Assembly (NCBI RefSeq): GCF_014836425.1
Contig: NZ_JACSQW010000010.1
Location: 1 to 57,655, forward strand
DNA: 57,655 bases
Direction: 5' to 3'
Source: Limosilactobacillus avistercoris
GTDB taxonomy: Bacteria > Bacillota > Bacilli > Lactobacillales > Lactobacillaceae
The position numbers and the translations under genes were made by a program. Shown here one piece after another: positions 32,598-39,858 of this stretch. Numbering within the stretch: position 1 is the first letter of the stretch; each line of letters begins with the position of its first letter. Under the pieces are notes generated by a model. The model did not search any database. It saw only the letters and a program-made list of their open reading frames with translations, and was not told the DNA's origin.

Positions 32598-33389
32598 TTA
32601 TTCCGTAATATCCGCTCCGAAGTATTTTTGGGAGAGTTTTTTAACGGTACCATCCTTTTGAAGTTTCTTTAGAGCTTGGTTATAAGAGGATTGAATGGCT
32701 TTATCTTTTTTATTGAAGAGAGCAGAGATGTTTGCTGGCTTTACTTCACTAGAAACATCAATCATCTTTAACCCCTTTGTGTTGTACTTCTTGCCATAAG
32801 CATACCAAGCTTCACGTGAGTTAACCGTTCCCTCAGCCCGGCCTTGCTTAATCATTGCTAGTGAATTACTAAAGTCACCACTTGGAACAAGCGTACCGTG
32901 ATACTTTTTAACAACATCAGCATTATTTGTTCCGGTACCAGCAACAATCTTCTTCCCTTTAATCTGTTTAAGATTCTTAATCTTACTATCCTTAGGCACA
33001 ATCAAAGCGTACCGTGACTTAATGTACGGGGTAGAGAAATTATACTTTTTTGCCCGTTCTGGAGTCTGAGTAATGTTATTCATTACTACATCATATTTTC
33101 CAGAACCTAATCCAGCTACTAAAGAATCCCACTTACTAGGAACAAATTTAGCTTTTAACCCCATCTCCTTGGCAACCGCTTTTCCAAGATCAACTTCAAA
33201 ACCAGTTAACTTATTGTTTTTCCGGTATGAATAAGGAGAGTAAGTTCCCTCCAATCCAATTGTGAGCTCACCCTTTTGCTTTAATTCCGAATTAACCTTT
33301 GATGAGGCCGCATGAATACTACCAATCCCAGCACTTGTTCCGAGTGTAATTGCAGCTAATGTTACCAGTACTTTTTTCCACATTTTCAT
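32598..33389 (-). CDS. ABC transporter substrate-binding protein, amino acid (cystine type)
   Basis: 263 residues. Signal sequence (MWKKVLVTLAAITLGTSAGIGSIHAASS, in part) with a charged N-terminus and hydrophobic core; no lipobox Cys is evident, so export by a standard or uncleaved signal is possible. Then the family-3 binding-protein fold: KGELTIGLEGTYSPYSYRKNNKLTGFEVDLGKAVAKEMGLK (about 39-79) and a C-terminal lobe. Last gene of the operon led by the Cys leader peptide; cystine or a related sulfur amino acid is the likely ligand, by context. GGAG before ATG. Confidence 0.87.
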   Translation of the reverse strand: MKMWKKVLVTLAAITLGTSAGIGSIHAASSKVNSELKQKGELTIGLEGTYSPYSYRKNNKLTGFEVDLGKAVAKEMGLKAKFVPSKWDSLVAGLGSGKYDVVMNNITQTPERAKKYNFSTPYIKSRYALIVPKDSKIKNLKQIKGKKIVAGTGTNNADVVKKYHGTLVPSGDFSNSLAMIKQGRAEGTVNSREAWYAYGKKYNTKGLKMIDVSSEVKPANISALFNKKDKAIQSSYNQALKKLQKDGTVKKLSQKYFGADITE

Positions 33390-33405: not shown

Positions 33406-34155
33406 TTACTTTAAGTTTTCCATTGTCATCGAAGCAATAAAATTCTTGATTCGTTCATTTGGATTATCCTGAGAAAAGAATTCTTCCGGGTTACCATCAT
33501 AAATAATTTCACCATTTTCCACGAAAATGATCTTATCTGCAATCTGTTTAGCAAACGCCATATTGTGAGTTACCAGAACCATTGATTGCTTTTCACGGGC
33601 TAGTTGGAGGAGAACCTTCAAGACACTTAGCTCTAATTCTGGATCTAAAGCAGAAGTTGGTTCATCAAGGAGAACATATTGTGGCTTCATTGCCAGTGCC
33701 CGCGCGATTGCTACCCGCTGTGCTTGTCCACCTGACAATTCACTTGGATATACATCCCCATAGTCTGCTAGCCCCACCTTAGCCAATAACTCCCTAGCTA
33801 CTTCAATTGCCTGCTTTTTTCCCATCTTCAAAACCTGAGTGGGCCCTTCGATGATATTTCCCAGAACCGTTTTATGCGGGAAAAGATTGTAATCCTGAAA
33901 GACCATCCCCGTTTCCCGACGAACTGCTAACTTTTCTTTATTGCTTATACTCTGACTAAAATCAATCTGGTGGTCATTGAATTCATACTGACCACTTTCC
34001 GGCGTTACCAGGAAATTCAGTGACCGAAGAATTGTTGACTTTCCAGAACCGGATGGACCAACGAGAACCGTCACCTTCCCCGCAGGAAAATCTAATGTTA
34101 TATCTTTCAACACGTGCTTATTGCCATATGTTTTGTTAATCCGAGTTAACTTCAT
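33406..34155 (-). CDS. Amino acid ABC transporter ATP-binding protein
   Basis: 249 residues. Walker A GPSGSGKST (about 33-41), Q-loop MVFQDYNLFPHKTV (about 85-98), ABC signature LSGGQAQRVAIARAL (about 140-154), Walker B YVLLDEPTSALDPEL (about 160-174) and switch His in LVTHNMAFA (about 194-202). Energises import together with the permease and binding protein on either side. Fits the TcyC/GlnQ polar amino acid group. Confidence 0.93.
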   Translation of the reverse strand: MKLTRINKTYGNKHVLKDITLDFPAGKVTVLVGPSGSGKSTILRSLNFLVTPESGQYEFNDHQIDFSQSISNKEKLAVRRETGMVFQDYNLFPHKTVLGNIIEGPTQVLKMGKKQAIEVARELLAKVGLADYGDVYPSELSGGQAQRVAIARALAMKPQYVLLDEPTSALDPELELSVLKVLLQLAREKQSMVLVTHNMAFAKQIADKIIFVENGEIIYDGNPEEFFSQDNPNERIKNFIASMTMENLK

Positions 34156-34169
34156 TGCATTTCACCTCT

Positions 34170-34865
34170 CTAACTTACCCTGAGCTGACTACCCAATCGT
34201 TTCTCTAAGTAATGTTGAATGATTGTAAGGGCCGTGGTAAACACTGCATAAATCAATGCCACCAATGTGTACATTAACAATGGCTGGTAATTTGCAGCCG
34301 CAATTTGCTGGCTAACTTCAAACATTTCCATAATCGTAATCGAGGCTGCCAACGAAGTATCTTTTACCAAGCTGATGAAGCTATTTGATAAGGGTGGTAA
34401 TGCCACTTGAAGTGCTTGGGGAATTATAATGCGCCACAATATTTGGAGACGAGTCATCCCAATTGCTGCACCAGCTTCCCATTGCCCCTTAGCAACTGAA
34501 CTAATTGCTGCCCGAATCGTTTCTGAAGCATACGCCCCTGTGTTTAATGAAAAGGTAACAACTCCAGCAGTAAATGGCTCTAATTTTATCCCGTGAGGAA
34601 AGATTCCTTTAATCCGTAAATATGGTAACCCGAAGAACACAATGAATAATTGAACTAAAAGTGGGGTTGACCGGAAAAGCCAGACATAAAATTGAGCAAA
34701 CCATTTAAGTAGGGTAAACAGCCCGCGTTGGTGTGACAGCCTAATCAATGCAGTTACTAAGGCAATGATTAACCCAAAGAAAAATGAAATTAACGCTAAG
34801 GGAATCGTATATTTAAATCCCGCTGCTAAAAGCTGGGGTAATGATGTTCTGATTATTTCCCACAT
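34170..34865 (-). CDS. Amino acid ABC transporter permease
   Basis: 231 residues with about five membrane helices, of the HisM/TcyB polar amino acid family. The EAA motif that docks the ATPase is EAGAAIGMTRLQILWRIIIPQAL (about 128-150, written here in part: EAGAAIGMTR...IIIPQAL). An early FRSTPLLVQLF stretch (about 63-73) is also typical. Seven nt after the lyase gene and 14 nt before the ATPase gene, so one transcript. Confidence 0.92.
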   Translation of the reverse strand: MWEIIRTSLPQLLAAGFKYTIPLALISFFFGLIIALVTALIRLSHQRGLFTLLKWFAQFYVWLFRSTPLLVQLFIVFFGLPYLRIKGIFPHGIKLEPFTAGVVTFSLNTGAYASETIRAAISSVAKGQWEAGAAIGMTRLQILWRIIIPQALQVALPPLSNSFISLVKDTSLAASITIMEMFEVSQQIAAANYQPLLMYTLVALIYAVFTTALTIIQHYLEKRLGSQLRVS

Positions 34866-34872
34866 AATTAGA

Positions 34873-36027
34873 TTATCCTTTCTCTTGCTTTAATTTACCT
34901 AGAGCTTGTTTCAGATCAGCGATAATATCTTCAGGATCTTCAATTCCGACTGATAAACGAATTAGCTCATCCTTAATCCCGTTTTCTAATCTTATTTCCC
35001 GGGGAATTGAACCATGAGTCATTACTGCTGGAACTTCAATCAGGCTTTCAATTCCACCAAGACTTTCTGCCAAGTCAATCAAGTGCAGACTTTCAACAAA
35101 TTTCTTAGCATCTAATCCTGACTTCAACTCAAAACTAATCATTGCTCCAAAGTTACGCATCTGTTTTGCCGCAATCCTATGACCAGGGAAATCAGTTAAT
35201 CCAGGGTAATAAATCTTGGCAATTCGTGGATCATCTTGCAAAAATTTAATCACCGCATCAGCATTTTCTTGGTGGACTCTTAACCGTGCCCCTAAAGTCT
35301 TAATTCCCCGTTGGAGCAACCAACTATCGTCTGGTCCAAGCGTACTTCCAATTGAATTCTGTAAGAAGGCTAACTCATCAGCAATTTGTTGGTCACTGGT
35401 TACCGCCAATCCGGCAACCACATCACTATGTCCACCAAGGTATTTTGTTGCGGAATGAACCACAATATCTGCTCCTAGGGTTAACGGCTGCTGGTTATAA
35501 GGTGTTGCAAATGTATTATCAACAATCGTTTTAATCCCATGTTTCTTTGCAATATTACTAATTGCTTCAATATCTGCAACCTGAAGAAGAGGATTAGTTG
35601 GTGTCTCAAAGTAAATTGCAACGGTCTCATCTTGGATTGCTTTTTCCACAGCCCCTAAATCTTGCATATTAACAACCGTAAATTTCAAGCTGAACCGTTT
35701 TAACACCTTATTGATCAGTCGAAACGTCCCACCGTACACATCACTTCCAACAACAAAGTGATCCCCCTGAGAATATAAGGAAAATACAGCGTGAATTGCG
35801 GCAGAGCCAGATGAAAAGGCAAAGCCGGCTAACCCATCCTCTAACTCGGCAATTAACTTCTCTAATGATGCTCGAGTTGGATTTCCTGTTCGTGAATATT
35901 CCCATTGGGGGTTAGCACCGAGTCGATATTGGTGAAAGGTTGAGGAACGATAAATTGGTGTTGAAACGGCACCCGTAATTTTGTCTTCACTGTTGCCGCC
36001 ATGAATTAATTGAGTATTAAAACGCAT
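34873..36027 (-). CDS. Cystathionine gamma-lyase / gamma-synthase / beta-lyase (Cys/Met PLP family)
   Basis: 384 residues, normal length. PIYRSSTFHQ and YSRTGNPTRASLEKLIAELEDG (about 44-65) near the N-terminus, FSSGSAAIHAV (about 71-81), VDNTFATPYNQQPLTLGADIVVHSATKYLGGHSDVVAG (about 170-207) with the PLP Lys, and GGIESLIEVPAVMTHGSIP (about 324-342) near the C-terminus. Transsulfuration enzyme; lyase versus synthase cannot be separated by eye. First structural gene of an operon with an amino-acid ABC importer and a Cys leader peptide, so a role in cysteine supply or cystine breakdown is favoured. Confidence 0.88.
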   Translation of the reverse strand: MRFNTQLIHGGNSEDKITGAVSTPIYRSSTFHQYRLGANPQWEYSRTGNPTRASLEKLIAELEDGLAGFAFSSGSAAIHAVFSLYSQGDHFVVGSDVYGGTFRLINKVLKRFSLKFTVVNMQDLGAVEKAIQDETVAIYFETPTNPLLQVADIEAISNIAKKHGIKTIVDNTFATPYNQQPLTLGADIVVHSATKYLGGHSDVVAGLAVTSDQQIADELAFLQNSIGSTLGPDDSWLLQRGIKTLGARLRVHQENADAVIKFLQDDPRIAKIYYPGLTDFPGHRIAAKQMRNFGAMISFELKSGLDAKKFVESLHLIDLAESLGGIESLIEVPAVMTHGSIPREIRLENGIKDELIRLSVGIEDPEDIIADLKQALGKLKQEKG

Positions 36028-36075: not shown

Positions 36076-36112
36076 AAGGCGCAATTCCAAGAAAAACTTG
36101 AAATTGCGCCTT
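36076..36112 (-). terminator. Leader terminator of the cysteine operon
   Basis: AAGGCGCAATTTCAAG, loop TTTTT, CTTGGAATTGCGCCTT (16 pairs, one wobble), then TCTTTATATC, on the minus strand, 49 nt before the lyase start codon. Its 5' arm (with GCATAA just before, 36106-36116) is complementary to leader-peptide codons at 36175-36185, giving an 11-nt antiterminator. Confidence 0.82.
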
Positions 36113-36145
36113 ATGCACTTACCCCGACTGTATTAGCAGGCCAAA

Positions 36146-36232
36146 TTAATTTTGGATACGCCAAAACGTGGGTCGCATAAGACGCGATCCACAGCAACAA
36201 ACAACAGCGTTAACAAATTGAATGTTATTCAT
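36146..36232 (-). CDS. Cys-rich leader peptide (transcription attenuation)
   Basis: 28 codons, too short for ORF listing: it begins MNNIQFVNAVV, then CCCGSRLM, then RPTFWRIQN and stop. The three consecutive Cys codons are TGT TGC TGT at positions 12-14. GGAGG lies eight nt before the ATG, and the promoter is just upstream. Downstream RNA can form either an antiterminator (36175-36185 with 36106-36116) or the terminator at 36076-36112. Within the leader, GGATCGC can also pair with GCGACCC and hide the antiterminator strand. When Cys-tRNA is scarce a ribosome stalled at the Cys codons should free the antiterminator and let the lyase-transporter operon be transcribed. Mechanism inferred from layout. 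Confidence 0.8.
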   Translation of the reverse strand: MNNIQFVNAVVCCCGSRLMRPTFWRIQN

Positions 36233-36262
36233 GACGTGTTCCTCCTAATAAAGTATGAATAA

Positions 36263-36291
36263 AATATAACTTATTTATAGTAAGGTGTCAA
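36263..36291 (-). promoter_or_regulatory. Promoter of the Cys leader-lyase-ABC operon
   Basis: TTGACA, 17-nt spacer, TATATT on the minus strand, about 30 nt before the leader peptide start codon. Confidence 0.85.
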
Positions 36292-38129: not shown

Positions 38130-39858
38130 ATGAAAGAAAAAACCATCAAGCTAATTGAGCAGGGCCTCCCTTATTACATCATCATTATAATGAGTTGCTT
38201 GATAATATTACCGCAAATAATACCCCATGGAGTTACCCTCGGGACAGATTCAATTTTTCATTTTAACCGTTTTTATGAAACAGCCCAGCAAATCCGGCAC
38301 TGGAATTTTAGTTACTTCCAAAGTAATTATTCTTTTCAACAAAGTGGCCGAATTATTAATGCTACATACTGTCTCCTATTTGCCTACTTTAATGGGATAA
38401 TCCTCTTGCTTGCTAGAAGTTGGTATCGGTACCAAATTATCACTAATCTTCTTATTTACTTCATCGGTGAAACCGGAATGTATAAACTATGCATTAAGCT
38501 CCACAGTAAGCAAAGTATCGCACTAATTATCGCTTTTATTTACATGAATCGGCTGGTTACCTCGCTGGGGATTAGCACAAAACATGAATGCATGGGGTGC
38601 CGCACTTTCTCCCTATATGGTCATCTGTGGTATCAGAATGATACAAAATAGAGAACAACCAATCAATGCTCTTCAGTTAATGACTCTCATGACCATCATC
38701 ATGCAAATCCATCTTCTGAGTTCCGTATTTTTTGCGGTTGCCTTGATTCCATTTTTTTGCTGGACTCATTTATTCCAGCAACCCCCGATTAATGTGGGCG
38801 GAATTAATCGAGGCAGTAATTGGAACAATAATCTTAACTGCTAATGTCTGGGGAGCATTGCTCATGATTAATCTCAATAACCATATTGCCTATCCAGCAA
38901 ACCTTAGCCTATTAGCCAATGCCCTCCGTCCAGCAATCTTTAGTAATAACCGAAGATTGCTTGCATTCCCCATTTGGTTCCTTTTTATTGCTCAATTGGT
39001 ATTTGTTATTAGAAAGCCACGACGCTCGTTCCTCAATACATTTATCACAAGTTGGGGATCCTTAATCTTGATCCTAAGTTCTGTTATTACTCCCTGGAGG
39101 AAACTTCAGTAGTGGCTTCCTTTTCTTTCGCATACATTACAATTTCCCAGCCGTCTAACAATTATCGCTTACCCACTTCTCTTCGCTAGGATCGCTATGA
39201 CCGTTACAGCAATCGTCAAATCAACTCCCAAATACTCACTTAGTCACATCTCCTCGATTGGCATTCTCATTGCAACCCTTCTCCTTGTATTTATCCCAAC
39301 TAAAATAACGATATCAATGGAAAGCCAAAACTTCCATTCTGATGCACTCTTAGCTAACCTCAGTGCATTATCAAAAGCCAGCACTAATAAAGAGGCAATT
39401 CGTCATTCCACTCAATCTTCACACCCTGAGCAACTACTAAACTTAATTGAAAAACGTAGTCCTGACTACCTGCCTCTCCCTTCAAACTATGCAGGAGATA
39501 AGTCCAAACACTCCTATGATTACCAATCCTAGATCATTGAGGACGCCAAGAACTTCCATCATACTGTTCTTAAGGGTGGAAAATTAAAGCTTACTTGGAC
39601 AGCTGATCATTCCGGAACACAGCGTCTCCCCCTAATCACTTATCACGAATCTGTCCTTACGGTAAATGGTAAAAAAGTTCCCCACTATCAACGCTCATCA
39701 ATCGGTGCCCTTTACATTCATGAGCAGCAAGGTATTAATACCGCTACTTTGAAATTCAAGCCAGCTAGCTGATTTAACTACCTATTAGTAATCTGGCTAA
39801 TTAGTTCAACCCTCTATTGGATATATGGTGGCTACTACCTTTATAAGCATAAATACTA
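38130..39858 (+). pseudogene. Decayed large membrane protein (6-pyruvoyl-tetrahydropterin synthase-related type)
   Basis: About 1.7 kb of one ancestral gene now spread over at least three frames. Its start (IIPHGVTLGTDSIFHFNRFYE, in part) resembles large lactobacillar membrane proteins with a PTPS-related domain. The frame breaks near 38583 and again near 38800-38840 and 39110-39200. In-frame stops occur at about 39530 and 39770. The last intact piece carries an extracellular beta-rich region (KGGKLKLTWTADHSG) and a final membrane helix with a YKHKY tail. The promoter region (TATAAT near 38052) survives but the ribosome site is poor. Not functional as written. Confidence 0.82.

Follow-up and report, generated by a model that had tools for sequence, protein, structure and literature searches.

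A leader peptide with consecutive cysteine codons as a probable ribosome-mediated transcription attenuator of cysteine-supply genes in Lactobacillaceae

In the 57,655-nucleotide stretch of Limosilactobacillus avistercoris DNA analysed here (hereafter the window), a 5′ leader on the minus strand (36291–36076) lies between an esterase-like gene (37258–36377) and a lyase/importer operon, and encodes a short peptide with three cysteine codons in a row, which raises the question of whether this leader couples the supply of cysteine to transcription of the genes behind it. Ribosome-mediated attenuators are known from the trp, his, ilv, and leu operons of enterobacteria. Among the Firmicutes, leader peptides have been described for hisS/hisZ in bacilli (PMC2965389), and a leucine-rich attenuator peptide has been described in Staphylococcus aureus (PMC5794164). 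An earlier note on this DNA had read the leader as an attenuator of the classical kind, a reading supported by the in-frame Cys codons, covarying pairings, and cysteine-supply targets reported below; we place the probability that the leader is a cysteine-specific, ribosome-mediated transcription attenuator at roughly 0.88.

The operon is on the minus strand and begins with a gene for a cystathionine-lyase-like PLP enzyme (Cys_Met_Meta_PP; 34873–36027), whose NCBIfam matches lie below curated cut-offs, followed by an ABC importer permease (34170–34865), an ABC importer ATPase (33406–34155), and a substrate-binding protein (32598–33389), for which the best NCBIfam matches, each likewise below the curated cut-off, are cystine permease, TcyN, and cystine-binding protein, respectively. 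Elsewhere in the window, on the plus strand at 38130–39532, a group of four ORFs, overlapping or adjacent and not in one frame, resembles a single broken membrane-protein gene.

The promoter TTGACA-17-TATATT, the GGAGG site, the 28-codon ORF with its TGT TGC TGT codons, and the 16-pair terminator listed in the earlier note were all found as claimed on the minus strand. The putative promoter (36263–36291; TTGACA 36291–36286, TATATT 36268–36263) was assigned by consensus match, with 11 of 12 consensus positions matched against nine at the eight other promoter-like sites between 32000 and 40000. The −10 hexamer is followed 31 nt later by the leader start codon; between the two lies a Shine-Dalgarno site, AGGAGG (36241–36246), and the start codon opens an ORF of 28 codons plus stop (36146–36232; MNNIQFVNAVVCCCGSRLMRPTFWRIQN) in which codons 12–14 are the three Cys control codons TGT TGC TGT (36191–36199). 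Cysteine accounts for 13 of the 3624 codons of ten ORFs in the window, so three Cys codons in a row would arise by chance at about 5e-8 per codon position. The 1.8 Mb genome contains the pattern TGYTGYTGYGRNNNNCG twice, the second copy being out of frame within a gene (judged by eye).

Beginning within the third Cys codon is a hairpin, P1 (36168–36192), made of ten pairs, GUGG/CCAC and UCGCGU/AUGCGA, around one A.C mismatch; the masking pairing GGATCGC/GCGACCC that had been proposed exists, and the real hairpin (36192–36168) is longer. Inside P1 lies the antiterminator strand GCGTCTTATGC (= GCGUCUUAUGC; 36175–36185), which can form 11 pairs, one of them G-U, with the partner GCATAAGGCGC (= GCAUAAGGCGC; 36106–36116). 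The complementarity claimed for this 11-nt segment, including its single G-U, was thus borne out, and its start is corrected to the sixth, not the seventh, nucleotide after the last Cys codon. The partner overlaps the 5′ arm of an intrinsic terminator of 16 pairs (36076–36112), behind which the U-tract is weak, reading CTTTATAT in this strain. P1 and the antiterminator are mutually exclusive, as are the antiterminator and the terminator base, and the 197-nt leader folds with z = −4.81, a value that 0 of 200 dinucleotide shuffles reach.

The leading edge of a ribosome lies about 13 nt ahead of its A-site codon. We infer stalling, an order of events, and a cysteine response in this species as follows. 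When Cys-tRNA is short, the ribosome would stall on the first Cys codon, where it would cover the 5′ side of P1 and leave GCGUCUUAUGC free; the free strand would capture the nascent 5′ arm of the terminator, and RNA polymerase would read on. When Cys-tRNA is ample, the ribosome would pass the Cys codons and cover the antiterminator strand, which would stay masked by the ribosome or refold into P1; the terminator would then form and transcription would end before the lyase/importer operon.

A total of 80 lyase-related loci were found, and the 20 from Lactobacillaceae were examined for leaders. The alignment check suggested in the earlier note gave the predicted outcome: a short ORF with at least two consecutive Cys codons was present at 20 of 20 loci, with three in a row at 18, and the stems show compensatory changes. 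Two loci (L001 and L017) read Cys-Cys-Ser, without the third Cys codon. The leader stands directly before the lyase gene at 16 loci (13 labelled Limosilactobacillus, two Lactobacillus sp., and Companilactobacillus nuruki, L013) and before a cysteine synthase gene preceding the lyase at the other four (L012, L014, L018, and L030), of which L014 is Oenococcus kitaharae (read by eye), L018 is L. equigenerosi, and L030 is Ligilactobacillus agilis. As judged by eye, the leader ORF of O. kitaharae (L014:1859–1963) contains seven Cys codons, CCC followed towards the end by CC and CC, and its Shine-Dalgarno site is weak. In Limosilactobacillus coleohominis An574 (L004:182–226), a TGA stop directly follows the three Cys codons and the RNA parts are kept, which makes this variant a natural test of whether the remainder of the leader peptide matters; locus L088 appears to be the same contig as L004.

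The family was surveyed with a covariance model, R1, that covers the leader start, the Cys codons, P1, and a further helix, P0, treated below, and excludes the terminator and antiterminator. It was built from 13 sequences, namely the window and 12 of the 20 Lactobacillaceae loci, L014 being omitted because it was misaligned. Run over 396 Lactobacillaceae genomes from 40 genera, R1 matched, at E values up to 0.01, at least 66 copies in at least 57 genomes belonging to 7 genera; these counts are lower bounds because R1 misses divergent copies and the large searches used stricter filters. Even in small searches, the Oenococcus and Lacticaseibacillus copies scored only E 0.01–0.8 with R1. In an order-level sample of 295 genomes, nine had an R1 match, all of them from the same family, divergent copies being missed by R1. 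Fifty congeneric genomes were searched for the lyase, 22 of these also with R1; among the 22, all 11 whose lyase reaches 76% identity or more carry the leader, as do two further genomes, one of them with a degraded lyase and the other with the leader ahead of an HTS gene; the leader was absent from the other nine.

The gene next to the 66 survey copies is cysteine synthase CysK in 31, the lyase in 23, an importer permease in four, an HTS-family acyltransferase (PF04204) in four, and other or unclear in four; a cysteine-supply gene (CysK, lyase, cystine permease, or HTS-family acyltransferase) therefore stands behind 62 of 66. The HTS-family genes may serve cysteine supply, because the metA-designated gene of L. 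paracasei ATCC 334 is listed as a serine O-acetyltransferase (PMC6004538). The remaining four copies are L087, L090, L120 (short contig end), and L143. At L087 (G045:C1; leader 344662–344765, lyase 345959), about 1.1 kb of other DNA separates the terminator from the lyase; this DNA is by its look an insertion and may uncouple the attenuator from the operon. The leader at L090 (G276:C21) precedes a lyase gene interrupted by one or more in-frame stop codons, and that at L143 (genus g22) has a GTG start and four Cys codons in a row, with a gene for an oligopeptide-binding-like protein next, perhaps serving a peptide-borne cysteine source (both copies read by eye).

In all 66 survey copies, the Cys run is in frame with the leader start, as scored by script in 64 and by eye in L097 and L143, for which the script had taken the wrong Cys match and the wrong start codon, respectively. 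The distance from the leader start to the first Cys codon is 27, 30, 33, 36, or 39 nt among the 64 script-scored copies, and this variation in steps of three argues for translation of the leader. In 61 copies the run comprises three consecutive Cys codons and in three copies two; the other two copies read Cys-Leu-Cys. A hairpin followed by at least five T in eight positions lies behind the leader in 66 of 66 copies by a script rule applied with no chance control, and a promoter-like site lies upstream of 55 of 66 under a looser rule, likewise with no chance control.

The pairing, footprint, and P0 tests used the 63 distinct sequences among the 66 copies. The cognate antiterminator duplex has a mean energy of −24.2 kcal/mol. 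Permuting the partners across the whole set gives −16.8 (sd 0.46), and permuting them within genera gives −20.3 (sd 0.41), the lowest value in 2000 permutations being −21.8; 0 of 2000 permutations reach the cognate value in either case, and the duplex finder picks paired bases for cognate and permuted partners alike. For shuffled antiterminator strands the mean is −12.6, with 0 of 100 shuffles reaching the cognate energy in 44 of 63 copies, and the cognate duplex beats every other-genus partner in 34 of 63. The longest uninterrupted antiterminator helix measures at least 9 bp in 52 of 63 copies (median longest run, 12 bp), and positions 5–18 behind the Cys run each show three to six pair types. 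The six strongly divergent copies of genus g22 give −24.4 for cognate and −13.9 for non-cognate pairs, and the differences are small in g3 (−25.8 versus −25.0) and g33 (−28.2 versus −26.2), where the copies are alike. Four copies pair poorly: L148 fails (−4.6), and L113, L115, and L116 are weak (−13.3 to −15.1).

Conservation of P1 was evaluated in an alignment, A6, of 50 of the 63 copies, in which identical P1 regions were entered once and from which L097, L142, L143, L144, L146, and L148 were left out. Standard pairs make up 91.4% of its 499 cells, a result favoured by the search, since P1 was part of the model that retrieved the loci. Double-sided changes occur at seven of the ten pairs, a count reached by 8 of 500 shuffles, and the covariation score is reached by 0 of 500; sliding the P1 partner by one to three columns reduces pairing to 23–51%. 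The fold z lies below −2 in 61 of the 63 copies.

The conservation of the leader could also be read as that of an arrest peptide, in which the leader peptide CCCGSRLMRPTFW itself would stall the ribosome, perhaps sensing free cysteine and not uncharged tRNA-Cys. The residues after CCC (G-S-R-L-M-R-P-T) are indeed nearly invariant among Limosilactobacillus lyase leaders, but P1 and the antiterminator strand explain this conservation. In copies elsewhere, the pairings are kept but the peptide is not, the Cys run being followed by EVRFLYFTTWRT, VPRLSRYTDCATQK, or RTTRFWRCSAC, and the An574 leader, which stops right after CCC with its RNA parts kept, also argues against peptide arrest, which we consider unlikely.

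A leader of the same design as the proposed attenuator precedes an operon with published expression data. In L. paracasei FAM18149, cysK2-ctl1-cysE2, which the title of PMC6200037 calls a highly mobile gene cluster, is expressed more strongly in medium deficient in cysteine than in medium deficient in methionine (log2 2.9 to 3.2; PMC6004538). The same report describes high 5′-UTR read coverage, an intrinsic terminator, and no T-box at this operon, calls the mechanism "yet to be discovered," and also proposes an antisense RNA there; its authors invoke RNase III fragmentation for the 5′-UTR coverage of their T-boxes (PMC6004538), and such fragmentation may account for part of the coverage at cysK2-ctl1-cysE2. 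The leader, on plasmid pFAM18149.25, reads MMSQSMFNAINCCCRTTRFWRCSAC; a hairpin follows its Cys run, its terminator is AAGGGCGCGAAAATTC..., and its antiterminator has an energy of −25.8 kcal/mol, reached by 6 of 200 shuffles. The published FAM18149 RNA-seq fits the attenuator reading. L. paracasei IBB3423 has nearly the same leader (7/200 shuffles reach the antiterminator energy), L. casei ATCC 393 has a leader with weaker pairing (35/200), and Limosilactobacillus fermentum DR9 has a strong copy (0/200). Outside the family, an annotated 45-codon hypothetical protein of Enterococcus faecalis (WP_002355203.1; NZ_CP143580.1, L160:2343–2480) contains Cys-Cys-Cys; its ORF precedes a terminator and cysK-lyase, has weak pairing (24/200 shuffles), and looks like a related or convergent cysteine leader.

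The L. paracasei copy also bears on a second alternative, in which the inverted repeat would be a protein-binding palindrome serving as a regulator site, or a plain terminator, and the leader ORF would be incidental. In lactobacilli, a palindromic motif, AAAGGGCGCGAA-N11-18-TTCGCGCCTTTT, has been reported upstream of genes for cystathionine synthase/lyase (Liu et al. 2012, cited in PMC6004538); the L. paracasei terminator arm matches it, and its FAM18149 version is the terminator stem of that copy. As cited in PMC6004538, the motif comes with no mention of a leader ORF, Cys codons, or an antiterminator. The terminator arms differ between copies, and they covary with the strand that follows the Cys codons, a dependence for which a protein site would have no need; moreover, the Cys codons are in frame in every survey copy; we therefore hold this explanation to be very unlikely.

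For the ribosome-mediated attenuator, folding with and without a ribosome footprint, a check proposed in the earlier note, gave the predicted direction on RNA cut before the 3′ arm of the terminator but was weak at full-length equilibrium in most copies. The footprint was modelled by keeping the first P-site base and the 15 nt on either side of it unpaired (the sites of L097 are shifted by its wrong Cys match). On the cut RNA, the mean probability of the antiterminator over the 63 copies was 0.97, 0.95, and 0.65 with the A-site at the first, second, and third Cys codon. It was 0.05 and 0.00 with the ribosome on the fourth and sixth codons past the run, 0.77 with it on the stop codon, 0.92 with it four codons before the first Cys codon, and 0.68 with no ribosome. 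The corresponding values for the window copy were 1.00, 1.00, and 0.90 at the Cys codons, 0.00 and 0.00 behind the run, and 1.00 at the stop codon, at four codons before the first Cys codon, and with no ribosome. In these models, a ribosome stalled at the Cys codons would not obstruct the antiterminator, and one positioned on the hairpin would mask it. The cut RNA prefers the antiterminator in 43 of 63 copies without a ribosome and in 49 with a ribosome at the stop codon, the window copy included, so that equilibrium alone does not predict termination of an RNA lacking a nearby ribosome, and such an RNA might read through unless P1 forms first and holds.

At full-length equilibrium, the antiterminator exceeded 0.5 in nine of 63 copies with the ribosome at the first Cys codon, six at the second, and one at the third, compared with none on the second, fourth, or sixth codon behind the run, one at the stop codon, and two without a ribosome. 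With the ribosome at the first Cys codon, the terminator base fell below 0.5 in 17 of 63, the terminator still winning in most copies. The window copy is among the better ones, with antiterminator core values of 0.60, 0.64, and 0.50 at the three Cys codons; past the run they drop to between 0.06 and 0.00, and they are 0.35 with the ribosome on the stop codon and 0.00 without one. Its terminator-base measure includes weak outer pairs (0.26 even without a ribosome). Full-length equilibrium folding as proof of the switch thus fails in most copies, and because it flips so few of them (9/63), the switch would have to rely on the order of events during transcription, P1 and the terminator forming in sequence.

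In some genera only, a further helix, P0, reaches back to the leader start. In the window, on the minus strand, its 5′ strand ACGUCA (36232–36237) lies between the Shine-Dalgarno site and the start codon, its last base being the A of the start, and its 3′ strand UGGCGU (36158–36163) lies behind P1. Over the 63 copies, cognate P0 pairing averages −7.7 compared with −6.6 when permuted within genera, 0 of 2000 permutations reaching it, and this within-genus signal comes mainly from g1 and g22. P0 in g33 pairs well (−12.3) but the copies are alike (−12.5 for non-cognate partners within the genus), and in g3 the cognate value is little better (−6.0 versus −5.2). Hits of R1 lean towards P0 because R1 contained it. 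As a general feature P0 was rejected, since in g4 cognate partners (−5.4) show no advantage over partners from other genera (−5.6). Where present, P0 might hide the leader start after the first ribosome has passed; we know of no such second layer in classical attenuators.

That the leader is a T-box or metabolite riboswitch is exceedingly improbable and was rejected, for although T-boxes are a common amino-acid sensor here (27 matches to RF00230 in the own genome, 12 of them over the cut-off), no RF00230 core was found at the locus, the window's contig C1 has no T-box match, and Rfam gave no match at gathering score at the leader (four matches at E up to 5, each far below the gathering score of its family) and none in 12 relatives. 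A covariance model search found one copy of the Cys attenuator in the own genome. Elsewhere in this genome, a tandem of two distant lyase paralogues (G000:C2:40007–42576) has a T-box match just upstream (77.6 bits, cut-off 93), and the genome seems to use a T-box for one lyase operon and the Cys attenuator for another. T-box leaders (RF00230) of lactobacilli perform the same task, sensing uncharged tRNA and controlling amino-acid supply genes. Tentatively, the Cys attenuators of Lactobacillaceae could be doing a job that falls to T-boxes elsewhere in the same genomes, with P0 in some genera possibly holding each nascent RNA to one ribosome and one decision.

The Cys leader has in common with the classical and Firmicutes attenuators an ORF with control codons, alternative hairpins, an intrinsic terminator, and an operon for the same amino acid, and differs from them in sensing cysteine, in a P1 that is contained entirely within the ORF and begins at the last Cys codon, in its long antiterminator, and in the P0 that reaches the leader start in some genera. 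Cysteine leader peptides have been reported from actinobacteria (Seliverstov et al. 2005, PMC1262725), and polycysteine leaderless ORFs from mycobacteria (Canestrari et al. 2020, cited in PMC13236596); like the lactobacillar leader, these are described as short ORFs that contain Cys codons in runs and stand ahead of cysteine operons. In the accounts given there, the actinobacterial leaders have no conserved terminator hairpin and carry their runs near the stop codon, and the mycobacterial ORFs are leaderless and act by translation attenuation, whereas the lactobacillar leader has a Shine-Dalgarno start, a run in the middle of the ORF, and an intrinsic terminator with an antiterminator. With its Shine-Dalgarno start and terminator, it falls outside the mycobacterial class of polycysteine leaderless ORFs. 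The literature searched, outside of which most subscription journals lie, yielded no description of a cysteine leader-peptide attenuator in lactobacilli, consistent within that scope with the earlier note, which had been aware of none of this kind; the logic of attenuation is known, and the lactobacillar cysteine family was not found described there.

The finding would place a cysteine leader peptide with an intrinsic terminator in seven genera of a family where T-boxes were the predicted RNA control of genes for sulfur amino acids. For cysK2-ctl1-cysE2 of L. paracasei FAM18149, a published regulatory puzzle, the attenuator would offer a concrete, testable mechanism, and the 63 distinct copies provide natural variants for studying the evolution of such switches.
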